A stretch of 64,000 nucleotides of DNA from an uncultured Litoreibacter sp. (GTDB lineage Bacteria; Pseudomonadota; Alphaproteobacteria; Rhodobacterales; Rhodobacteraceae). The position numbers and the translations under genes were made by a program. The notes beneath the pieces are model-generated. The model did no database searches and was not told the DNA's origin. It saw only the letters and a list, made by a program, of their open reading frames with translations. Positions 45,716-60,421 of the stretch are shown here, piece by piece; the stretch's first letter is position 1, and every line of letters begins with the position of its first letter. The stretch lies in contig CANLUY010000002.1 in the NCBI GenBank assembly GCA_947494435.1, forward strand, positions 930,001 through 994,000. Reading direction: 5' to 3'.

Positions 45716-47392
45716 TTACTCAGCAGGTGTCGCCTCGATATTGTCGATCGTGGTCGCAACGCCAGCAGCCTCGCGGCGGCCGTCGTTCCAGATCGCTTTG
45801 ATCAAAGCTACACACATCAGCGCCATCACGACTGAGAATGGCAAAGCTCCGATCACCATCGCGGTCTGGATGGCCCCCGTCCCGCCAGAGATCAGCAATC
45901 CGCCAACCACAAGCGCCAAGGCAGCGCCCCAGAACAGGATATGTGGACGTGCTTTCGGACCTTCGTCACCCGCCGCGTTGATCGTGTTCACGATCAAAAC
46001 CGCAGAGTCAGCGGACGTGACAAGGAACGTCAGCAGCAAGACCACGATCATCACCGCCATGGCCCAAGCCAAGGCTTCAGCGATTGGGGCCAGCATGAAC
46101 TCCGTCATCGCAAAGATCTTATCGCCATTGGCGGCATCAAGGATCACCCCGTTTGCATTGCCGTTCAGCTCCAGATCAATTGCTGTGCCACCGGCCCAAG
46201 CGAACCAGACAAAGCACATCAGCGATGGGACGATCATCGCGCCCAGCACGAATTCGCGAATTGTCCGGCCACGCGAAATACGTGCAAGGAACAGACCCAC
46301 GAATGGTGCAAATGCGATCCACCAAGCCCAGTAGAACACGGGCCACCAGCCCTGCCACTGCGTCAGCAAGAAGGCTTCGGAGCCCTCAACACCGTCAGAG
46401 GAGTACACGTTGAAGCTCAACCATGGCAGCGCCACGAGATAGTCGAAGATACCGACGAAGAACGCCGAGGCTCCGAACCAAGTCGCGCCGAAGATGATGA
46501 AGAAGCTCAACAGCACAATCGACAGAACCATGTTGATGTTCGACAGCCACTTGATGCCTTTACCAACACCTGACAACGCGGAAAGCGTTGAAGCCCCCAT
46601 AATCACCAGAAGCGCCACAACGATACCCAGCGTCGTCGCCGAGCCATCTTCAAGCACCAAGCCTCCGATACCGATCCGTGTCAGACCTGCCACGAACTGC
46701 TCCACGCCGAAGCCCAGCGTTTGTGCCACACCAAGGATGGTCGCAACCACAGCCACGATGTCGATCAGGTGGCCCAAGCCACCGGACAAGGACTTACCAA
46801 ACAGCGGTGTCAGCGAAGACCGGATCGTCAGCGGCAAACCGCGACGGTAGCTGAAGAAGGCCAGTGCCAGACCCGCAATCGCGTAACACGCCCATGCGCC
46901 CAAGCCCCAGTGCAGATAGGACCAGATATAGGCCTCCCGCACGTTGTTGGCATCCAGCGCCGTTGTCACGCCTTGGATTACCGCAGGGTTGTTTTTGAAA
47001 TGTGCCACCGGCTCAGCCACGGCCCAAGTCAACATGCCCACACCGATACCGGCGCCAAACATCATCGAGAACCATGAGAAGTTGGAGAATTCCGGCACTT
47101 CGCCGTCCTGCCCCAAATTCAGCTTGCCGCCCGCAGGCCACAGCGCCAGACCGATACACACGATCACGAAGGCCGTCACGACCCAGATATACCAAGCGGC
47201 AAATTGCGCCAGAATAGCCGTGTTCCATTCGCCAAGAATTGTTCCGGCCTCGGTTGGCCAGACGATACACCACACAACCAGACACGAGATGATGACCTTA
47301 CTGATCACCGCCACGTTCACACTGAACCCCCGATAAAAACCGCTATCAGCGGTCTTGATCGGGAGATCCGTTAAAGGAGGTTTTACAGACAT
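45716..47392 (-). CDS. BCCT family transporter (betaine/carnitine/choline type)
   Basis: A 558-residue secondary transporter with twelve predicted membrane segments that imports trimethylammonium or dimethylsulfonium compounds using the sodium or proton gradient. The family motif lies in FSWFSMMFGAGIGVGMLTWA, with the aromatic substrate box in helix 8 (LPWLSFNVYSSDGVEG, then YWAWWIAFAPFVGLFLARIS). Glycine betaine, choline, carnitine and DMSP are all possible. It is divergent from a LysR regulator that probably controls it. The dmdA operon lies 4 kb away, so DMSP uptake is an attractive guess but not shown. Confidence 0.9.
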   Translation of the reverse strand: MSVKPPLTDLPIKTADSGFYRGFSVNVAVISKVIISCLVVWCIVWPTEAGTILGEWNTAILAQFAAWYIWVVTAFVIVCIGLALWPAGGKLNLGQDGEVPEFSNFSWFSMMFGAGIGVGMLTWAVAEPVAHFKNNPAVIQGVTTALDANNVREAYIWSYLHWGLGAWACYAIAGLALAFFSYRRGLPLTIRSSLTPLFGKSLSGGLGHLIDIVAVVATILGVAQTLGFGVEQFVAGLTRIGIGGLVLEDGSATTLGIVVALLVIMGASTLSALSGVGKGIKWLSNINMVLSIVLLSFFIIFGATWFGASAFFVGIFDYLVALPWLSFNVYSSDGVEGSEAFLLTQWQGWWPVFYWAWWIAFAPFVGLFLARISRGRTIREFVLGAMIVPSLMCFVWFAWAGGTAIDLELNGNANGVILDAANGDKIFAMTEFMLAPIAEALAWAMAVMIVVLLLTFLVTSADSAVLIVNTINAAGDEGPKARPHILFWGAALALVVGGLLISGGTGAIQTAMVIGALPFSVVMALMCVALIKAIWNDGRREAAGVATTIDNIEATPAE

Positions 47393-47591
47393 AATATGTT
47401 CCCTGTTGCTTTACCCAGATCCTGTCCGCATCGGCTGCGACGGCCCGGGCCTTTCATATTGGGGTTGTTTTGAGTGATTGAGACCGTCTCCCCGGTACAC
47501 CGCTCTTCCCCCTGTTTACAGGAAAGCAGAAATAGTTACGTTTGATAAGTACGAACTTTCTGACCCATGGTTTCATAAACAGGCAACATAC

Positions 47592-48518
47592 GTGGTAAAG
47601 CGTGCACATCTCAAAAGCTTGGGCGATGTCGACATCCGCCTCGTCCGCGTTTTTGTTGCCGTCACGGAGTCAGGCGGCCTCGCCGCCGCAGAGCCCGAAC
47701 TCAACATCGGCCGCTCGACAATTTCGAAACATATTGCGGATCTCGAACTGCGCATGGGGCTCAAGCTATGCAACCGCGGTCCTTCCGGATTTTCGCTCAC
47801 AGTGGAAGGCGAACGCGTCTTAACATCAGCCCGCAAGCTCTTGTCTTCCATTGATGATTTTCAGTCATCTGTCGACAATATCCACACCAATCTCGCAGGC
47901 ACCCTGAGGCTCGGATTGTTCGACCAATCCACCACCAACCCCAACGCTTTCATCCACACCGCGATCCAGAGCTTTGACAGGATTGCGCCAGATGTCTCCC
48001 TCGAAATCTCGGTCGAGCCGCCCACTGGTATCGAGGGGCGCGTCATTGACGGGTCCATGGATATCGGCATCGTGCCCATGCACCGCCAGTCCACATCCCT
48101 CAGCTACGAAATTCTTTATGACGAGTGGATGACACTTTACTGCGGCGCGGGTCACGCGCTGTTTGAGTCGCCAAAGGGCGCATTGGCCGGCATTGACCTG
48201 TCGGAGCAGAAATATGCGGGCTTCGGCTTCAACTCCCCCAATATGAAAGCGGGCCAAGCCCTTGGCATGCGCCGTGCCGCCCGTGTGCAAGATGAAGAAG
48301 CGCTCTCCCTCCTGATCCAATCCGGCAGCTATCTGGGCTTTCTGGCCGACCACGTCGCCGAAACTTTCCTGTCAAAAGGCAAAGTCCGCCCCGTCGATGC
48401 AGAGCGGACGCGCTACGTCTCAACATTCGCGGCCATCACAAGAAAACAACCCGAGCCGGACCGCAAAACCCAAACCTTCCTAAGCTGCCTCACAGCTGCC
48501 CATGGCAAAGACCCCTAG
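47592..48518 (+). CDS. LysR family transcriptional regulator
   Basis: A LysR-type regulator with the winged helix IRLVRVFVAVTESGG, then RSTISKHIADLELRMGLKL, followed by a periplasmic-binding-like effector domain (GTLRLGLFDQST, then ISVEPPTGIEGRVIDGSMDIG). The start is unclear: the open frame begins with TTG at 47478; GTG at 47592 gives about 308 residues, close to the family norm, but the ribosome-binding site is weak. It is divergent from the BCCT transporter over 199 bp. The stop overlaps the next convergent gene by 4 bp (CTAG). Confidence 0.85.
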   Translation: MVKRAHLKSLGDVDIRLVRVFVAVTESGGLAAAEPELNIGRSTISKHIADLELRMGLKLCNRGPSGFSLTVEGERVLTSARKLLSSIDDFQSSVDNIHTNLAGTLRLGLFDQSTTNPNAFIHTAIQSFDRIAPDVSLEISVEPPTGIEGRVIDGSMDIGIVPMHRQSTSLSYEILYDEWMTLYCGAGHALFESPKGALAGIDLSEQKYAGFGFNSPNMKAGQALGMRRAARVQDEEALSLLIQSGSYLGFLADHVAETFLSKGKVRPVDAERTRYVSTFAAITRKQPEPDRKTQTFLSCLTAAHGKDP

Positions 48519-51020: not shown

Positions 51021-51404
51021 TCAGATATCTTCGAGGCTCACCGAAACATTTAGTTTGTTGCCGTCGAGATCACGGACATAGGCCCCGAAATAATCAGGGT
51101 GATACCCACGCGGCCCCGGTGCGCCTTCATCCGTACCTCCGCATTGCAAAGCAGTTTCATGAAAGACCCGCACCGCGTCTGCATCTGGCGCATAGAACAT
51201 AAACTGTGTCCCATTTCCAAACGTAGCAGGCTTTTCATTGAATGGTAAAATCACAAAGACAGTGACCCGCCCATCCGCGCCCGCATAGCCAAGCTCATCC
51301 GCTTCGCTCAGCACACGTCGCATCCCAACTGTCGCCAAAACCGCGTCATAGAACGTTCCAGCGGCCTCGATATCATTCGTGCCAATACAGACGCCAGACA
51401 GCAT
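51021..51404 (-). CDS. VOC family protein (glyoxalase/bleomycin resistance fold)
   Basis: A 127-residue protein of two paired beta-alpha-beta-beta-beta units. The start MLSGVCIGTNDIEAAGTFYD and the end GAYVRDLDGNKLNV are typical for VOC proteins; metal-ligand positions cannot be assigned with certainty. It could be a dioxygenase, lyase or binding protein. The longer ORF upstream of ATG 51404 is not supported. It lies behind acuI but after a 125-bp gap with a GC hairpin, so it is probably separate. Confidence 0.82.
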   Translation of the reverse strand: MLSGVCIGTNDIEAAGTFYDAVLATVGMRRVLSEADELGYAGADGRVTVFVILPFNEKPATFGNGTQFMFYAPDADAVRVFHETALQCGGTDEGAPGPRGYHPDYFGAYVRDLDGNKLNVSVSLEDI

Positions 51405-51529: not shown

Positions 51530-52519
51530 TTATGCGTTCACATCAACCACAACACGGCCCTTGACCTGACCTTTCAAGATGTCCTTCCCAAGACCCGGAA
51601 GATCGCTCAAAACCGCAGGCTGAACCATCGCTTCAAGCTTATCCATCGGCAGATCCTTCGCGATCCGCTCCCACGCTCTGAGGCGATTATCATAGGGCTG
51701 CATCACGCTATCAATGCCCAGCAAATTCACGCCCCTCAGAAGGAACGGAATAACCGTCGCAGGCAAGCCCGCACCACCAGCAAGACCCACCGCGGACACG
51801 GACGCCCCGTACTTCATCTGGCCCAAAACCCGCGCCAGCATGTCGCCGCCCACGGCATCAACACAGCCCGCCCAAGTCTCCGCTTCAAGCGGCCGCTTCG
51901 TGGTTTCATTCAGATCTTCACGCGCTACGATCTGGCTCGCCCCCAAAGACTTCAGATACTCACCCGTCTCAGGCCGCCCCGTCACGCCCGCGACCTCATG
52001 TCCAAGATTGGCCAGAATAGCCGTCGCAACGGATCCAACACCACCCGCAGCGCCCGTCACCAGCACAGGACCGTTCCCCGGCTTTAGCCCGTGATCTTCC
52101 AGCGCCATCACCGCCAGCATTGACGTGAAGCCAGCCGTTCCCACAGCCATAGCCTGCCGCGCATCAAGGCCCTTGGGAAGCGGAACCAGCCAATCGGCCT
52201 TCACCCGCGCTTTCTGAGAATATCCTCCCCAATGCGCCTCACCAACACGCCAGCCAGTCAGCACGACCTTGTCACCGGGTTTGTAGCGATCATCCGATGA
52301 CGCTTCGACCGTGCCTGCGAAATCAATGCCGGGCACATGCGGGTAGTTCCGCACCAGACCGCCCCCGGGCCCAATGCAAAGCCCATCCTTATAATTCACG
52401 GTCGAATACTCGACCGCCACCGTCACATCCCCGTCGGGCAATTGATCTTCCGAAATCTCGGTCACTGAGGCGCTCGTCTTGCCCTCGTCATCCTTCGTTA
52501 CAAGCAATGCGTTGAACAT
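51530..52519 (-). CDS. acuI: Acryloyl-CoA reductase AcuI (YhdH-type MDR)
   Basis: NADPH-dependent medium-chain reductase of 329 residues that turns acryloyl-CoA into propionyl-CoA and so removes the toxic acrylate arising from DMSP. The pattern VEYSTVNYKDGLC, then YPHVPGIDFAGTV, the cofactor glycine loop VTGAAGGVGSVA and SVSAVGLAGGAGLP fit the YhdH/AcuI group; zinc-binding cysteines are absent as expected. It follows dmdA by 12 bp, the arrangement known from Roseobacter strains in which the two are cotranscribed. Confidence 0.92.
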   Translation of the reverse strand: MFNALLVTKDDEGKTSASVTEISEDQLPDGDVTVAVEYSTVNYKDGLCIGPGGGLVRNYPHVPGIDFAGTVEASSDDRYKPGDKVVLTGWRVGEAHWGGYSQKARVKADWLVPLPKGLDARQAMAVGTAGFTSMLAVMALEDHGLKPGNGPVLVTGAAGGVGSVATAILANLGHEVAGVTGRPETGEYLKSLGASQIVAREDLNETTKRPLEAETWAGCVDAVGGDMLARVLGQMKYGASVSAVGLAGGAGLPATVIPFLLRGVNLLGIDSVMQPYDNRLRAWERIAKDLPMDKLEAMVQPAVLSDLPGLGKDILKGQVKGRVVVDVNA

Positions 52520-52531
52520 CTCGTTTTCTCC

Positions 52532-53632
52532 TCAAATCCAGAAATTTTCGTGCACGACAGCCTGCCTCGGCCCGTCTTGCGTTTCAACTTGAACCGTTGT
52601 GCCTTCATCCCAATGGGTCATGCGCACCATACCGATCGCGACATTCGTATTAAAGTCCGGACTCAACGCGGCAGATGTCACCTGCCCGATCAACTTCCCT
52701 TTCGAAGTAATCTGCCAAAGCCGGTCGCATGGCGGGATCACGCCTTGAATGGCCAAGGCTCTGACCTGCTTCACTGGTCCCTCCGTTGCGACGCGCAACA
52801 ATGCGTCCCGCCCCACACAGCCGATAGCCGTCTGTGTCGAACAGAACCGCCCCAGCCCACACTCATGGGGTGTGTTATCGCGAGTCATATCGTTGCCGTA
52901 GCTCAATAGCCCACCCTCGATCCGCTCGATCAGGTTTGGACATCCGGCATAGACATCCAAGTCCTTCCCAGCTTCCATAAGAGCGTTCCATAGCGGCATC
53001 CCATTCTGGCTGCCTTCAACATAGACTTCAAAGCCGCCTTGCTTTGAGTAGCCAGACCGCGCGACGAGCATTTGCTGGCCTTTGAAGTCGAAATATCCAT
53101 AGCGGAAAAAACGAAGGTCTTTGACGGCATCCCCAAAAATGCGCGCAGCCAACTCATCCGCCTTTGGACCTTGGATCGCCAAGGGCGACACATCCGGCTC
53201 ATCCACGATGACATCCAGATACAGGGCATGGGCCAGACCTTTGACCCACAGCAGCAAGTCGCTATCAGCAATCGAGATCCAATACCGATCCTCGGCCAGC
53301 ATCAATGCCACTGGATCGTTCAGCATCCCTCCAGTGCCGTCCACGGTCGGCAAATAATAACACATGCCAGGCAACATCGAACGCAGATCGCGTGGCGTGA
53401 GCATTTGCATCAACCGGCCCGCATCGGGACCACGCAACTCTACCTGCCGCTCGACTGAGACGTCCCAGACTTGAACAGCTGATTTCAGATGATGATAGTC
53501 TTCCTCTACCGAGCGAAACACGGTTGGAAGGAGCATCCGGTTGTAAACGGTATATCCTTTGACGCCTGCGGCTTCGACACCGTCAGAGAATGGCGTGCGG
53601 CGCACGCGGCGGGATGGAGCAATGCTTGCCAT
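52532..53632 (-). CDS. dmdA: DMSP demethylase DmdA
   Basis: Tetrahydrofolate-dependent enzyme that takes a methyl group from dimethylsulfoniopropionate to give methylmercaptopropionate and 5-methyl-THF. It belongs to the GcvT fold, 366 residues. The N terminus SRRVRRTPFSDGVEAAGVK, then YTVYNRMLLPTVFRS, LNDPVALMLAEDRYWISIAD and IERIEGGLLSYGNDMTRDNT closely match DmdA of Ruegeria as I know it and differ from GcvT. The C-terminal ATG-like barrel is complete. It starts 5 bp after the DinB-like gene and 12 bp before acuI. Confidence 0.95.
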   Translation of the reverse strand: MASIAPSRRVRRTPFSDGVEAAGVKGYTVYNRMLLPTVFRSVEEDYHHLKSAVQVWDVSVERQVELRGPDAGRLMQMLTPRDLRSMLPGMCYYLPTVDGTGGMLNDPVALMLAEDRYWISIADSDLLLWVKGLAHALYLDVIVDEPDVSPLAIQGPKADELAARIFGDAVKDLRFFRYGYFDFKGQQMLVARSGYSKQGGFEVYVEGSQNGMPLWNALMEAGKDLDVYAGCPNLIERIEGGLLSYGNDMTRDNTPHECGLGRFCSTQTAIGCVGRDALLRVATEGPVKQVRALAIQGVIPPCDRLWQITSKGKLIGQVTSAALSPDFNTNVAIGMVRMTHWDEGTTVQVETQDGPRQAVVHENFWI

Positions 53633-53637
53633 GGCTT

Positions 53638-54138
53638 TTATTCCGGCATGATGAACAGATCGGTATCATCCGGGTTTTGCCCAGCTGCGGTCAGCATGGC
53701 ATGCAATTGACCGCGATGATGCGTCTGATGGTTGAAGAAATGCGTGATGCACAGCGCTTTAGGTTTAGAAACCGTTTTATTCAGAGCACCGGAGTGCCAG
53801 ATCATTGGGCCGACCAGATCAAGCTGTCTGAGTTTGTTCGCCCAACGCATGATCCTTTCATCCGTGCGCAAACGGTCATCGAGCCAGAGCTGTTTATCAT
53901 CGTGTAAACTTGTGCTGTCAGGGATACCGGTGCTCGGCCCAACCCCACCGTCAAAGCGCGACATCCATAGTTGATCACCCCATAACAGGTGATTTGCGGT
54001 TTCCCAGATTGATCCGAAGAATGCCTTACGGTCTTTTCTCAGCTCTTTCATCTCGAGGTTTTTGACACATCTCGAGACGCTTTTGTTCTGCCACGCATTA
54101 TAGCGCGCCATGGTCTGACAATATTCGACCGTGATCAT
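53638..54138 (-). CDS. DinB family protein
   Basis: A 166-residue four-helix bundle of the DinB/YfiT superfamily. The metal-binding histidines are visible in ETANHLLWGD and THFFNHQTHHRGQLHAML. Members include thiol-dependent transferases that use mycothiol, bacillithiol or glutathione, and many of unknown function. It lies 3 bp after the DUF1326 gene and 5 bp before dmdA, so it is embedded in the DMSP operon. A thiol-transfer role in DMSP sulfur chemistry would make sense but is speculation. Confidence 0.85.
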   Translation of the reverse strand: MITVEYCQTMARYNAWQNKSVSRCVKNLEMKELRKDRKAFFGSIWETANHLLWGDQLWMSRFDGGVGPSTGIPDSTSLHDDKQLWLDDRLRTDERIMRWANKLRQLDLVGPMIWHSGALNKTVSKPKALCITHFFNHQTHHRGQLHAMLTAAGQNPDDTDLFIMPE

Positions 54139-54141
54139 CGG

Positions 54142-54840
54142 TTAAGGCCCCGACCACTCGATCGGACAAATCTCTGCTGATTTTCCACCGAAATCCCAAA
54201 CGCGGCCATAGTCGCGAATACGAGACTTTTTCCCGACCGCTGCGATAATATCCGGACCCATCCAGTATTTGGAGTTCGTTACCATCACAGGATGATCATC
54301 TGACTTACCAGAAATCATCTCAATCTCACCTTGGATTTTACGCCCGATATTGATCGACCGTTTCTTCCCTTCGCGAACGATTTCAACCGGAGCACGTTCT
54401 GCACCAATGATTTCTGACACCAGCATAGTGAACAATCCCGTTGTCCCACCAGCGGCACCGGAGAAGATTTTTAGGATACCGTTATAGGCTTTTTGTGTTG
54501 ATCTTTCATCGACATAGGCGGCGACCTTCCAGTCGCCCTCGCCCATCCGACCTGGAATATCTACGAGCAATCCAATATTGAGGCCCGACAGGTCCTCCCC
54601 TTCGAAATGCCCTTCATCAATCGCGATTGCCATCCACGCGTGGCAATGACCTTCGGTCGGAGGATGCGCACCAAGAGAAACCACACACGGACAAAACACC
54701 GTGCAAGAGCAATTCAAAAACAGCTCACCCTTGATTGACCAATCCGTAGGCTCTTTGCGTCTGCGCCGCGGGTTCATGCGCGCGTCGATCTTCTGCATGA
54801 CTTGCAGGCGATCAGATGGTTTGCGTTCCTTTTTGGCCAT
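54142..54840 (-). CDS. DUF1326 domain protein with cysteine cluster
   Basis: A 232-residue protein of the DUF1326 family. After a basic N-terminal tail (RMNPRRRRKEP) comes the family hallmark ELFLNCSCTVFCPCVVSLG with Cys44, 46, 50 and 52, then GHCHAW with Cys66. Such a cluster suggests metal binding, but no metal is established. No signal peptide is seen, so it is probably cytoplasmic or at the inner face of the membrane. ATG 54840 has GGGAGGG upstream. It follows the DUF2182 membrane protein by 11 bp, a pairing frequent in proteobacteria. Confidence 0.85.
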   Translation of the reverse strand: MAKKERKPSDRLQVMQKIDARMNPRRRRKEPTDWSIKGELFLNCSCTVFCPCVVSLGAHPPTEGHCHAWMAIAIDEGHFEGEDLSGLNIGLLVDIPGRMGEGDWKVAAYVDERSTQKAYNGILKIFSGAAGGTTGLFTMLVSEIIGAERAPVEIVREGKKRSINIGRKIQGEIEMISGKSDDHPVMVTNSKYWMGPDIIAAVGKKSRIRDYGRVWDFGGKSAEICPIEWSGP

Positions 54841-54851
54841 ACGACCCTCCC

Positions 54852-55676
54852 TTATCCAACGACGCCGTAAGCGGCGCAGCCTAGCCCTGCGAGGATTAAA
54901 ACAACCCCCATAGGTTTCGTAACATAGTGCCCGATTTGAGGCAGCTTTTCGATCACCATAAACACTGTGGCCAAACCCATCCATAAAAGGCTCATCACAC
55001 CACCAACAAAGCCCAGGGCCATGAAGCCCCAACAGCAACCGACGCAGAACGCACCAAGGCCCAAGCCCATGCGCAATCCACCGGCAAAACCAGTCTTCCA
55101 ATGACCGAGGAAATACATGCCGGGTGAGTGGCATACGCCGTGGCAAATCTCTTTTACACGCGTGAATTGAAATGCTCCTACGACCACAAGCAAAAGCCCT
55201 GCGAACCAAAGCGAATTTGAGATGCCCAGATCATCAATAAACCCGGATGCCATAAGGCCAATTTGCGCCACAGCGATCATTGCCGCGAATCCGACCCAAA
55301 CAACAAAATATCCGAGCAACACGCCAAGCCACCCTGCCCGTGTACCATTGGCTGAGACCATTAAATCTTCATAGGCCCGTAAAGTCGGAACCATTGTTGG
55401 CAACATCATTGCCGCCATCATAATCGCCCACATAGGAAATAATGCACCAAACGTCGTCATTTGCATCATTGGCATGCCTGCCATTGGGGCCATTCCCTCA
55501 GGCTTCATATCGCCTGACATAGACCCTGACATGGCACCGCCCACGTCCATCATACCAGTCGGGCGTCCAATCCAGTCCACACCCATCATTTGAGCCATGG
55601 AGAACATGACCCACCACGCGGCAAGAATTGCTGCGAAAAAAGACAGCCAGAGAACTGATCTGGTGATATGTGGCAT
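54852..55676 (-). CDS. DUF2182 membrane protein, Met/Cys-rich
   Basis: A 274-residue inner-membrane protein with about seven hydrophobic segments. Between the first and second segments lies a loop with eleven methionines in roughly 37 residues (for example MSGDMKPEGMAPMAGMPMMQ). Further on are CHGVCHSPGM and FCVGCCWGFM, both possible metal sites. The family has been described as predicted metal-binding but has no proven function. ATG 55676 has GGAGG upstream and begins MPHITRS. It is the first gene of the dmdA operon and divergent from a FadR-type regulator. Confidence 0.86.
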   Translation of the reverse strand: MPHITRSVLWLSFFAAILAAWWVMFSMAQMMGVDWIGRPTGMMDVGGAMSGSMSGDMKPEGMAPMAGMPMMQMTTFGALFPMWAIMMAAMMLPTMVPTLRAYEDLMVSANGTRAGWLGVLLGYFVVWVGFAAMIAVAQIGLMASGFIDDLGISNSLWFAGLLLVVVGAFQFTRVKEICHGVCHSPGMYFLGHWKTGFAGGLRMGLGLGAFCVGCCWGFMALGFVGGVMSLLWMGLATVFMVIEKLPQIGHYVTKPMGVVLILAGLGCAAYGVVG

Positions 55677-55697: not shown

Positions 55698-55735
55698 TTG
55701 CCAATTCATTGTCAGGTTTTTAAATGTCTTACAAT
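55698..55735 (+). promoter_or_regulatory. Promoter and candidate operator between DUF2182 and the FadR-type gene
   Basis: TTGCCA and TAAATG are spaced by 17 bp and point towards the regulator gene. The inverted repeat ATTGT/ACAAT (55708-55712 with 55731-55735) overlaps it, and TTGTAAGACA on the minus strand resembles the TNGTNNNACNA pattern of FadR-type operators. With only 74 bp between the genes, one site could control both directions. Confidence 0.45.
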
Positions 55736-55750
55736 TAAAAAGGCAGCCAA

Positions 55751-56485
55751 ATGAAAATTGATCATACGTCAGACAAAGATCTTTCCGCGCAAATTGCCAC
55801 GGCAATCCGTGATGCGATTATCTCAGGTCAGCTGCCCGTCGACAAACGTCTTCCCTCGGAGGCCGAGTTAGCTGATCAGTTTGAAGTGTCCCGTCCGACA
55901 GTGCGCGAGGCTTTGAAACGCCTTGCTGCGCAATCCTTGATCCGAACGCAGCGCGGTGCAACCGGTGGGGCTTTTGTCAATCGGCTGACCTTCGAGGATG
56001 CGTATGGCCAGCAGATCACCACCTCAACATTATTGCTGTCCATGAATGCGGTCAGCTTTGAAACTGCGTGTGAGGCGCGCTACGCGCTTGAGCGCGCATG
56101 CGCCGTGCTCAGTGCCGGTCGGCGCGAAGCAGATCACCTTGCAACAATGCGCGCGGAAATTCACCGCCAAGCCCAGCCCGGCTTATCAGATGAAGCATTT
56201 TGTGCATCCGATGTGGCCTTTCATAGGGCGTTGGTCGATGGCGCGCGCAATCCGGTTCTGTCCTACCAATTGGCAGGCGCCGTCGAAGCGATGCAGCCGC
56301 TGATGAATATGATCACTTTTTCAGCGCGGTCACGTGAAGAAATTATCGCGCTTCACACCCGCATCGCGGATGCGATCGAAACGCAGAAACCCGATCTCGC
56401 AGATGCGGCATTGCGGGAATTGCAAGACTATACCATCGCATTGGCCAATGCGGTCATCGCAGAGCGTGCAGCGCAGCAAACTTGA
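55751..56485 (+). CDS. FadR-type GntR family regulator
   Basis: A 244-residue regulator with a GntR winged helix (LPSEAELADQFEVSRPTVRE, then RTQRGATGGAFV) and an FCD effector domain of helices with metal or ligand positions in DVAFHRALVDGA and IIALHTRIADAI. FCD regulators usually sense small carboxylates or their CoA esters. It is divergent from the DUF2182-DUF1326-DinB-dmdA-acuI operon and therefore the obvious candidate to control it, with DMSP, acrylate or a breakdown product as effector. This is inferred from position only. Confidence 0.9.
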   Translation: MKIDHTSDKDLSAQIATAIRDAIISGQLPVDKRLPSEAELADQFEVSRPTVREALKRLAAQSLIRTQRGATGGAFVNRLTFEDAYGQQITTSTLLLSMNAVSFETACEARYALERACAVLSAGRREADHLATMRAEIHRQAQPGLSDEAFCASDVAFHRALVDGARNPVLSYQLAGAVEAMQPLMNMITFSARSREEIIALHTRIADAIETQKPDLADAALRELQDYTIALANAVIAERAAQQT

Positions 56486-56663
56486 CGACGTGAACCTGCC
56501 ATGCAAGTAACGCGCAAGGGTCTGACCCCTGCCGTCCGCAAGCGTTCCGCTTTGGCGAAGTTAGTTATAACCTTAACATTCGCGCTCATGTGCAACATGT
56601 CGCCCGGATGGCAATGCGGACCCCATCTGATCAACGACATGTTCGAAAGATGTGAGATCGATC

Positions 56664-57089
56664 ATGCGACAATCGCAAACACTTGAGACCTACAAACAAC
56701 AAGCCAAAACCCTCCGCACCGAATTGGGGAGCACGCGCATTTCTCATGCCGAAGCTCTTGAATTGGTCGCCAAGCAGCACGGTTTCCGAAACTGGAATAC
56801 TTTGCACGGCGCGCTGGGCAACCGCCCTATCGTGTGCAGCTATACTCCTGGTGCACGGGTCAGTGGTTACTATTTGGGCCACAGTTTCAAAGGTACCGTA
56901 AAGTCTAGCGCGCGTTGGGGGCAAGACGGCCATACTCGATTGACAATCCGTTTTGATGAGCCAGTTGATGTGGTTGAGTTCGAGAGCTTCTCTGCGTTCC
57001 GGCAGCAGGTCAGCGCAGTCGTTGGACAAGATGGCATTTCCCCTCAAAGAACCTCAAAAGGCGTTGCCCATTTGGTGATTAGAGGCTGA
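56664..57089 (+). CDS. Glyoxalase_8-like small protein
   Basis: A 141-residue protein whose first 45 residues (YKQQAKTLRTELGSTRISHA, then EALELVAKQHGFRNWNTLHG) match the N-terminal helical motif found in 'glyoxalase superfamily' proteins of the Glyoxalase_8 type, also seen in phage and toxin-antitoxin contexts. The remainder, a small beta-rich domain (GARVSGYYLGHSFKGTVKSS), is not recognised. Function unknown. An ATG at 56664 is used; a GTG four codons earlier is possible. The 178 bp before it (56486-56663) show no gene. Confidence 0.65.
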   Translation: MRQSQTLETYKQQAKTLRTELGSTRISHAEALELVAKQHGFRNWNTLHGALGNRPIVCSYTPGARVSGYYLGHSFKGTVKSSARWGQDGHTRLTIRFDEPVDVVEFESFSAFRQQVSAVVGQDGISPQRTSKGVAHLVIRG

Positions 57090-58366: not shown

Positions 58367-60421
58367 TCAAGCCACTTGCCCATCCAGTTGCTGCGCTTTC
58401 CGTCCGACGATGACACGGGCATCCGCAAGTGACATCGGTTTGCCAAAGTAGAACCCTTGGACCGATGCACAATTCTCGCGTTGCAAGAACTGCAGCTCAT
58501 CCTCCTGCTCCACCCCTTCGGCCAACACAGGAATGTTTAACGCATCGCCAAGTAGAAGCGTTGAACGCACAATGGCTGCACGTTGAATATTTGAATGTAC
58601 GTCTTGGACAAAGCTCCGGTCGATTTTAATCTTGTCGAACGGAAAGGCCTGAAGCGTCGCAAGGGAAGAATAGCCAGTTCCGAAATCATCCATAGCGATC
58701 CGAATGCCCATTTGCTTGAGCTTGTGCATGACCTTCAGCGTGTTTTTCTGATCGTCGATAATACTTGCTTCCGTCACCTCAAGTTCAAGACGCGTAGGGT
58801 CCAGCGCGCTTTCCAGCAAAATATCTGACACATGCTCTAGGAACGATGGCTGAACCAATTGTTGGGGCGCAACATTGACGGCGATCCCAAACGGTTTTTC
58901 CCAACTTGCCGCTTCCATACAAGCGGTTCGCAACACCCATAGTCCGATATCGCGGATCAAGCCGGTTTCCTCTGCCAGAGGTATAAAGTTGGCGGGTGAG
59001 ATCAGACCTCTTTCCGGGTGGTTCCAACGAAGCAAAACCTCAAACCCTTCAGGTGCCAAGGTCTGAATATTGTTCTGTAACTGATAGACCAACTCAAGCT
59101 CGTTATTGGGCACGGCCTGCCTGAGATCATTGACCATAAACAACTTATCCCGGTTTTGTTTGTCCATCTCCGGATTGTAAAAACAGACCTTCTTATCGCC
59201 ACCGGATTTCGCCCGATACATTGCCAAATCCGAATAATGCAAAAGCTGGTCGGTATCGCTCCCATTATCGAGACTGCTGGAAATGCCAATGCTCGCCCCA
59301 ATGGAGATTTCGCCTTGTTCAATCTGGATCGGTTCGAGGATCTGCGCCCTGAGCCGATGTGCAAATGCTTGAACCTCGTCGAGGCGTCGAAACCTTGTCT
59401 TGATCGCCACGAACTCGTCCCCGCCCACGCGCGCAAGAAATTCATCCTGATCAAGAACGGACGTCATCGCCGTAGAAATATTAGTCAGAACGAAATCTCC
59501 AGCCCCGTGGCCGTACAGGTCGTTCACGTCTTTGAAAAGGTCCAGATCAATCGTCAAAATTGCCGCTCTTGCGCCGGGCTCAAGCTCAAGCAGCTCAGAC
59601 AAATCTGCCATCTTCTGCTTCAGTTTCAAGCGATTGGGCAACTGAGTCAGCGGGTCGTGCATAGCGGCATCCCGCAACTTTCCATCGGTCTCATATTCCA
59701 TCCCGGTCTCGATCAGCAGCGCGGCCAAACCGATGAGCAACACCGCAGCGGTTACACCAACCACAAGAAAGCTGAGGGTCATGTCGGAGATCACTTGTGG
59801 CGGCACAACAATCCGCGGATCGAGTTCAATCTCGATCGCTCCCATCGCGGTGAAATGCATGCTGCAAATCGTCAGAACCATAAGCGCAGCACCAATGCGC
59901 CACATGTAAGTCGGACGGGGTTGGCTGATGGCGAAAAACGCGCATGCCCCGAGACTCGCGCCAACAATGACCGACGCGACGACCAACGAGCCGTACCAAA
60001 CGATTTGTCCCGGAAGCAAATATGCAGACATCCCAAGGTAGTGCATCAGCGTCACGGTAAGCCCAAAAAATGCACCACCGACCAATCGCATCGCTGGGGG
60101 TTTGAAATTCACCGTTACAAAGATCGAAATGGCCATCCCCAAAATTGCCACCAGAAGTGACAGTGTCGTAATTCCCGGCTCATAGGCGTGTTCGAAAACC
60201 GGTTCATAGGCAAGCATGGCAATGAAATGCGTCGACCAAATCGTCGCGCCCGATATCATTGCCGTAAGCAACAGTTTAATCGTTCGTTGATGGCCCTTCG
60301 CGCGGCAGGTTCTCGAAAGAAGTTGCGCTGACAAACCCGACCCGACGATGCAAACCATTGCGGCAAGCAACACCAAGCCATGATTGTGCTCGTATCCTAA
60401 ACACTCAATAATCCGGTACAT
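58367..60421 (-). CDS. MHYT-GGDEF-EAL protein (cyclic di-GMP synthesis and breakdown)
   Basis: A 684-residue membrane protein. The N-terminal 250 residues carry seven predicted membrane helices with three MHYT-type motifs (STHFIAML, LMHYLGMS, SMHFTAMG), thought to bind copper and sense oxygen, CO or NO. The GGDEF domain is near residue 332 with an intact RVGGDEF, so diguanylate cyclase activity is possible. The EAL domain has EVLLRW near 462 and DDFGTGYSSL and AEGVE downstream, so phosphodiesterase residues also look intact. It stands alone between convergent potD and the tmRNA gene, and should affect biofilm or motility. Confidence 0.92.
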   Translation of the reverse strand: MYRIIECLGYEHNHGLVLLAAMVCIVGSGLSAQLLSRTCRAKGHQRTIKLLLTAMISGATIWSTHFIAMLAYEPVFEHAYEPGITTLSLLVAILGMAISIFVTVNFKPPAMRLVGGAFFGLTVTLMHYLGMSAYLLPGQIVWYGSLVVASVIVGASLGACAFFAISQPRPTYMWRIGAALMVLTICSMHFTAMGAIEIELDPRIVVPPQVISDMTLSFLVVGVTAAVLLIGLAALLIETGMEYETDGKLRDAAMHDPLTQLPNRLKLKQKMADLSELLELEPGARAAILTIDLDLFKDVNDLYGHGAGDFVLTNISTAMTSVLDQDEFLARVGGDEFVAIKTRFRRLDEVQAFAHRLRAQILEPIQIEQGEISIGASIGISSSLDNGSDTDQLLHYSDLAMYRAKSGGDKKVCFYNPEMDKQNRDKLFMVNDLRQAVPNNELELVYQLQNNIQTLAPEGFEVLLRWNHPERGLISPANFIPLAEETGLIRDIGLWVLRTACMEAASWEKPFGIAVNVAPQQLVQPSFLEHVSDILLESALDPTRLELEVTEASIIDDQKNTLKVMHKLKQMGIRIAMDDFGTGYSSLATLQAFPFDKIKIDRSFVQDVHSNIQRAAIVRSTLLLGDALNIPVLAEGVEQEDELQFLQRENCASVQGFYFGKPMSLADARVIVGRKAQQLDGQVA

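Follow-up and report, generated by a model that had tools for sequence, protein, structure and literature searches.

The window examined here, a 64,000-nucleotide stretch from an uncultured Litoreibacter sp. of the family Rhodobacteraceae (assembly GCA_947494435.1, contig CANLUY010000002.1, positions 930,001 to 994,000), carries a five-gene cluster containing dmdA, the gene for the demethylase of the algal compound dimethylsulfoniopropionate (DMSP), and next to it a divergent regulator gene with a putative operator. A preliminary description had reported the five genes running in one direction with gaps of 11, 3, 5 and 12 bp. Starts, stops and upstream bases agree with this, all five genes lying on the minus strand with an ATG start in each, and the family names given there are borne out by Pfam and NCBIfam profile scores. 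The features, in window positions, are:

55751-56485, plus strand: GntR/FCD regulator gene (gntR), divergent, 74 bp from ppoB2 (PF00392, 69.5 bits; PF07729, 67.2 bits; both above cut-off).
55703-55740, no strand: palindrome, consensus ATTTGTCAGACatTTAAAnGTCTGACAT, between gntR and ppoB2, a putative GntR operator (score 39.2 of a maximum of 62.6).
54852-55676, minus strand: ppoB2, membrane protein, first gene of the cluster (PF09948, formerly DUF2182; 197.9 bits, cut-off 28.7).
54142-54840, minus strand: DUF1326 protein gene (PF07040, 176.6 bits, cut-off 25).
53638-54138, minus strand: dinB, DinB-fold protein (PF05163, 76 bits, cut-off 23).
52532-53632, minus strand: dmdA, DMSP demethylase (NF009133 equivalog, 656.5 bits, cut-off 410).
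51530-52519, minus strand: acuI-type acryloyl-coenzyme A (acryloyl-CoA) reductase gene, YhdH subfamily (TIGR02823, 453.9 bits, cut-off 297.25).

Judged from the sequence, the five genes are best read as one operon. Weak scans placed none of ten terminator-like sites in the four intergenic gaps (shuffles averaged 6.2 sites) and none of three minus-strand promoter-like sites in any gap ahead of dmdA, these lying inside acuI, DUF1326 and gntR. The reductase falls 7 bits short of the AcuI equivalog NF051456 (432.9 bits, cut-off 440). The description had called DUF2182 uncharacterised, which is out of date, as the Pfam name is now PpoB2, a copper chaperone, after a Marinomonas protein (PMC2855505; the papers cited in this text are drawn on in excerpt).

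Conservation of the cluster and its constant parts

In a survey of 295 genomes of the family, from 294 genera, DmdA (E<=1e-100) was found in 125, PF09948 in 155, PF07040 in 151 and the DinB protein in 141. Those 125 genomes contain 134 DmdA matches in all, and 105 loci were read, one per genome (the window and 104 others). The 29 remaining matches, mostly the most divergent, stand outside the locus counts, as do nine cases among them in which PF09948 and PF07040 genes adjoin dmdA by coordinates, judged by eye. Because contig ends cut some loci, positive locus counts are lower bounds. The ppoB2-DUF1326 pair lies upstream of dmdA on the same strand in 87 of the 105 loci and is absent there in 18; acuI lies downstream on the same strand in 87; dinB is part of the cluster in 53 (upstream in 51), and all five genes occur in order in 47. 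A relative of gntR is divergent in 77 loci, an acyl-CoA synthetase gene joins the cluster in 12, and spacing is short: median distances between a stop and the start of the following domain are below 100 bp.

Counted by genome and by presence, with adjacency checked in part of the cases, a pair of the window type occurs in 106 of 125 dmdA genomes versus 31 of 168 others; G014 and G262, whose pair type is unclear, are left out, and 12 with only a reverse-order pair (see below) are scored as pair-less. Conservation of the cluster is far beyond chance. The three upstream genes, which the preliminary description had joined to dmdA, thus did not prove rare beside it: the association holds for the pair, but dinB is optional. 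The idea of a conserved, tightly spaced unit also stands, with order and spacing kept in most dmdA loci and a conserved site before ppoB2. Ruegeria sp. THAF57 (L286) and R. atlantica (L287) likewise have gntR and the pair before dmdA-acuI; 80 named loci picked by DUF1326 were not used in the counts.

The gaps between gntR and the first gene of the cluster share the palindrome. Overlapping hits aside, the next best place in the 64 kb of the window scores -2.6. A site (score >15) occurs in 76 of 90 survey loci with gntR versus 2 of 70 without (160 loci), a difference that is partly by construction because the scoring model was built from the same gaps. A more independent test is the search of 115 whole genomes at up to three mismatches, in which the pattern occurred in 27, in one place each, and a backwards control pattern matched one of the 115; the Litoreibacter genome has it in one place at the same threshold. 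The 27 places precede ppoB2 (20), dmdA (2), acuI (2), an acyl-CoA dehydrogenase gene followed by acuI (1), dinB (1) and none of these (1, G054). Gene order gntR-site-acuI alone is found in G044 and G075. Because site and gntR occur together, the palindrome is probably the GntR operator. A wider GntR regulon was considered and rejected: at up to three mismatches none of the 27 site-bearing genomes has a second place, and no further target gene was found. Also, none of the three best sites per locus is a second strong site before dmdA in ppoB2-containing clusters. Among the matches listed in a literature search for dmdA and GntR, no title is plainly about a GntR regulator of this cluster.

The genes after the regulator vary, with acuI as the one most often shared; across the loci read, the parts kept most often are gntR, the palindrome and acuI. 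This bears on the emphasis of the preliminary description, which had centred the unit on dmdA. Of 33 loci in which a pair of the window type stands without linked dmdA (DUF1326 score >250, plus loci of genomes with dmdA elsewhere), 28 have acuI no more than 3 kb from DUF1326. Three of the five exceptions end at a close contig end (L151, L184, L186) and two do not (L139, L197). All 31 dmdA-less genomes with the pair are included among the loci fetched; the 40 loci chosen for genes without linked dmdA show neighbours, not the frequency of that state. Further, dinB stands beside acuI without ppoB2 or dmdA in six of the nine dinB-only loci fetched.

A quick tree of the pair was built from 120 concatenated rows of DUF1326 and PpoB2, 87 of them from loci with linked dmdA and 33 from loci lacking it. 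The best tree requires at least 20 changes of dmdA, 13 of which fall on well-supported branches, versus 29 for shuffled labels, so that dmdA is clustered on the tree but has been repeatedly gained or lost. On the same tree dinB needs at least 34 changes. By these counts acuI is a steadier partner of PpoB2-DUF1326 than dmdA. Because acuI persists without dmdA, dmdA comes and goes and the palindrome precedes varying first genes, the most fitting description of the arrangement is a GntR/acuI regulon that carries dmdA, ppoB2, DUF1326 and dinB as cargo.

The pair also occurs in other settings. Across the class, 33 of 240 genomes have DUF1326; three of the 33 belong to the family. From 19 genomes outside it, 20 loci were read. 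Six of these have a DUF1326 close to the window type (score about 296 or more). In L214 the order is ppoB2-DUF1326-dmdA-synthetase, with a 3-hydroxyacyl-CoA dehydrogenase gene upstream (DmdA 503.9 bits, cut-off 410); genes that we take to serve electron transfer also lie upstream of its pair. L200, L215 and L218 have ppoB2-DUF1326-acyl-CoA synthetase without acuI, L203 has DUF1326 without PpoB2, and L217 has the reverse order. M24 genes near L215 and L218 resemble DddP (387 and 398 bits, below the cut-off of 600). In four of the six loci, then, the pair lies with DMSP or acyl-CoA metabolism genes and acuI is missing; the other 14 outside-family loci gave no acuI or dmdA matches in the stretches read. 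The synthetases of L053, L200 and L218 are PRK08162 acyl-CoA synthetases (773-877 bits, cut-off 677); as 3-(methylthio)propionyl-CoA ligase ("dmdB") they were rejected, scoring 294-332 bits against an equivalog cut-off of 822. In L200 (642-4671), the ppoB2-DUF1326-acyl-CoA synthetase genes are followed on the same strand by SBP56 and 2Fe-2S ferredoxin-type genes.

Within the family there is a second, divergent pair type, DUF1326 then PpoB2 (L185, L187-L193, L195, L196, L163, L164, L198). Over 107 residues, the reverse-order DUF1326 of L198 is 36% identical to its counterpart in the window. The stretches read around this type (12 loci, plus two further copies in L198) gave no match to the acuI or dmdA models.

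Possible roles of the PpoB2-DUF1326 pair

PpoB2 belongs to COG5486/PF09948, and its AlphaFold2 model is all-helical, with about seven long helices and a mean predicted local distance difference test score (pLDDT) of 77.3; structure predictions used alignments of close relatives only. The protein has a Met-rich region, and across 24 sequences its methionines 71, 73, 82, 86, 87, 90 and 91 are invariant, as are cysteines 178, 182, 211, 214 and 215. The DUF1326 motif NCxCxVFCPCVxSLGxHxPTxGxC is also invariant, with Cys 44, 46, 50, 52 and 66 and His 59 kept in 15 members of the window pair type; no obvious signal peptide was seen by eye. No paper naming DUF2182 or DUF1326 was found in the open-licence literature (subscription papers were outside the scope). 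The DUF1326 model is poor (pLDDT 55.7) and its best matches are acetoacetate-decarboxylase-like folds or enzymes, a lead only; we know of no link between that family and DUF1326.

The DinB protein is assigned to the DinB/YfiT fold by its PF05163 score and its histidine triad H50/H137/H141, each at least 90% conserved in 17 sequences; we take metal binding by this triad to be a superfamily trait. H50 is lost in L274 (Roseobacter sp. GAI101), and H137 and H141 in L292 (Loktanella salsilacus), both dmdA-less clusters; the triad is intact in L293, a third such cluster.

In Ruegeria pomeroyi, dmdA-acuI is induced about 14-fold by DMSP and about 12-fold by acrylate, and loss of acuI expression leads to acrylate sensitivity (PMC3338564). 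Together with the gntR-site-acuI core, these data make an acrylate- or acryloyl-CoA-responsive regulon the simplest picture. Acrylate or acryloyl-CoA would lift GntR repression, DmdA would then demethylate DMSP, and AcuI would remove acryloyl-CoA. PpoB2, a Met/Cys-rich membrane protein, and DUF1326, a soluble protein with a CxC...CPC...C pattern, may handle copper together, either delivering Cu(I) to the pathway's thiol chemistry (methanethiol, glutathione and, where present, a copper-dependent methanethiol oxidase) or shielding it from this chemistry. DinB could be a metal-dependent helper of thiol-transferase type that is not always needed. The comparison of loci itself shows dmdA, the pair, dinB and sometimes an acyl-CoA synthetase gene as cargo gained or lost behind one and the same kind of site.

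Copper handling during DMSP, methanethiol or acryloyl-CoA metabolism is the most likely task of PpoB2-DUF1326, given the Met/Cys and CxCx(3)CPC ligands conserved in the two proteins. The shared task in metal or thiol handling proposed in the preliminary description survives as the best guess. As a whole, the account of a GntR-controlled DMSP/acrylate operon with copper handling by PpoB2-DUF1326 is tentative, and we hold it with somewhat less than even confidence; its architecture is much firmer than its copper part. Less probable again, though a real possibility, is the fuller claim that roseobacters keep a dedicated, co-regulated copper/thiol pair in which DUF1326 is the soluble copper-binding partner of PpoB2, with copper either limiting DMSP turnover or endangered by it.

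Several observations weigh against the account. Pairs without acuI are found outside the family, and the site is missing from each of the 22 loci that have the pair but neither dmdA nor gntR; control by GntR and the palindrome is therefore not universal for the pair. No copper enzyme is encoded in the operon. Of the 137 genomes with the pair, 65 have no PF05694 match at E<=1e-60, and the MtoX equivalog is found in one of 80 dmdA genomes and also in three of 80 dmdA-less genomes. In addition, the excerpts of the R. pomeroyi literature leave room for a promoter next to dmdA.

A rather unlikely but serious alternative is defence against acryloyl-CoA or another electrophile, in which the three upstream proteins would shield thiols and thiol-bound metals from acrylate and acryloyl-CoA and need serve no copper enzyme: AcuI would remove the poison, DinB would conjugate it to glutathione, and PpoB2-DUF1326 would handle the freed metal. 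The persistence of acuI near the pair without linked dmdA, the dinB genes found beside acuI alone, the gntR-site-acuI arrangement of G044 and G075 and the mostly conserved DinB triad are all in keeping with such a defence. Yet outside the family the pair occurs beside an acyl-CoA synthetase gene or dmdA without acuI, dinB is absent from about half of the dmdA clusters, and the triad is broken in two of the dmdA-less clusters named above, though not in the third.

Alternatively, the upstream genes could be passengers, the pair being an unrelated copper module at a stable chromosomal address. The divergent reverse-order pair, with no acuI or dmdA match around it, and the free movement of dinB into and out of the cluster fit this idea. 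It is nevertheless improbable, for most dmdA loci keep the gene order, the short spacing and the site before ppoB2, and in other contexts as well the pair accompanies acuI, dmdA or acyl-CoA synthetases.

A narrower explanation is dedicated copper delivery to an SBP56-type methanethiol oxidase that clears the methanethiol formed by DMSP demethylation. SBP56 adjoins the cluster in G043, G240, six Tateyamaria loci and, in another family, L200, and stands beside dmdA without the pair in G066; in a seventh Tateyamaria locus (L283) no SBP56 lies in the stretch read. The cluster-1 cysteine motifs are exact in eight of these ten adjacent SBP56 proteins, L104 (G240) being cut and showing two and L200 having close variants, and cluster-1 enzymes of Rhodobacteraceae include assayed methanethiol oxidases (PMC10936201). 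SBP56 occurs in 73 of 125 dmdA genomes versus 20 of 170 others, and among dmdA-less genomes in 8 of 31 with the pair versus 11 of 137 without (P 0.0097). It lies within 10 kb of dmdA in 3 of 73 genomes versus 0.43 expected (P ~0.01 under a rough uniform model). Tree-paired comparisons of dmdA and SBP56 run in the same direction more often than not, without significance (median P 0.18).

Against this, SBP56 does not track the pair among dmdA genomes (64 of 106 with it versus 9 of 19 without, P=0.32), and the 65 pair genomes without a PF05694 match speak the same way. That cut misses the equivalog type, the two methanethiol oxidase searches overlapping little, and two of the 65 (G031, G255) do have the MtoX equivalog. 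The one SBP56 gene of the Litoreibacter genome lies outside the window; its product has all three cluster-1 motifs (GWNACS, HTV/IHC, GGDCS/T) but scores 130.6 bits against the cut-off of 650 of the MtoX equivalog NF052453. Known mtoX genes are often encoded with SCO1 and MauG genes of their own (PMC5739008), and copper in cluster-1 enzymes is not among the findings in the excerpts of PMC10936201. Dedicated delivery is quite improbable. MtoX as the sole client of PpoB2 was rejected on the 65 of 137 and the one of 80, and the distribution of SBP56 makes methanethiol oxidase a plausible client of PpoB2, not the only one. Finally, that DUF1326 is a pathway enzyme rather than a metal carrier, with PpoB2 as its transporter or membrane anchor, is very doubtful.

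Known operons and neighbouring genes

The link of dmdA with acuI and its control by acrylate are already known (PMC5395565; PMC9769926). The R. pomeroyi DSS-3 operon has the same dmdA-acuI order and is induced there by DMSP and acrylate, but only these two genes are named in the excerpts, with PpoB2, DUF1326, DinB, GntR and the palindrome unmentioned (PMC3338564); the DSS-3 sequence itself lies outside the locus set. The excerpts of the dmdA-acuI literature also pass over gntR, its palindrome and the genes upstream of dmdA; we rate the arrangement as a variant of a known operon. The AcuR-regulated acrylate operon is similar in having acuI in an acrylate-linked operon with a regulator. AcuR, however, is of the TetR family (PMC3338564), whereas the Litoreibacter operon has a GntR/FCD regulator, its own palindrome and other cargo genes.

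The PpoB1-PpoB2 tyrosinase operon of Marinomonas mediterranea likewise contains a PpoB2-family membrane protein, but there the neighbour is a copper tyrosinase (PMC2855505), and here it is DUF1326. A search for tyrosinase (PF00264) gave no match in the Litoreibacter genome, and control genomes gave none either. In the mtoX-SCO1-mauG operon, a copper chaperone is encoded with a DMSP-enhanced methanethiol-degrading enzyme (PMC5739008). Unlike in that operon, SBP56 adjoins the present operon type in a minority of genomes only. SCO1/SenC and PpoB2 belong to different families.

Should two or three more genes regularly belong to this operon, the textbook DMSP pathway is incomplete, and the conserved upstream genes may point to a neglected part of the marine sulfur cycle in which metals or thiols are handled. 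The palindrome offers a candidate operator, and its partner gene a candidate regulator, for dmdA. Were the copper/thiol role true, DMSP turnover and the split between methanethiol and dimethyl sulfide would be tied to trace-metal supply, and DUF1326 would have its first role.

Other genes lie close by. About 4 kb downstream of acuI, a BCCT transporter gene (PF02028, 489.9 bits) stands with a divergent LysR-type regulator gene (45716-48518); a BCCT-like gene follows dmdA on the same strand within 2.5 kb in 25 of the 105 dmdA loci, and such proteins may import DMSP or betaine. On either side of the operon lies a glyoxalase-superfamily gene (51021-51404, PF00903, 22.8 bits; 56658-57089, PF20066 Glyoxalase_8, 177 bits), and in L218 a glyoxalase-fold gene follows the synthetase gene. 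Near ppoB2, at 58367-60421, lies a gene for an MHYT-GGDEF-EAL signalling protein, whose MHYT domain presumably senses gas via copper.

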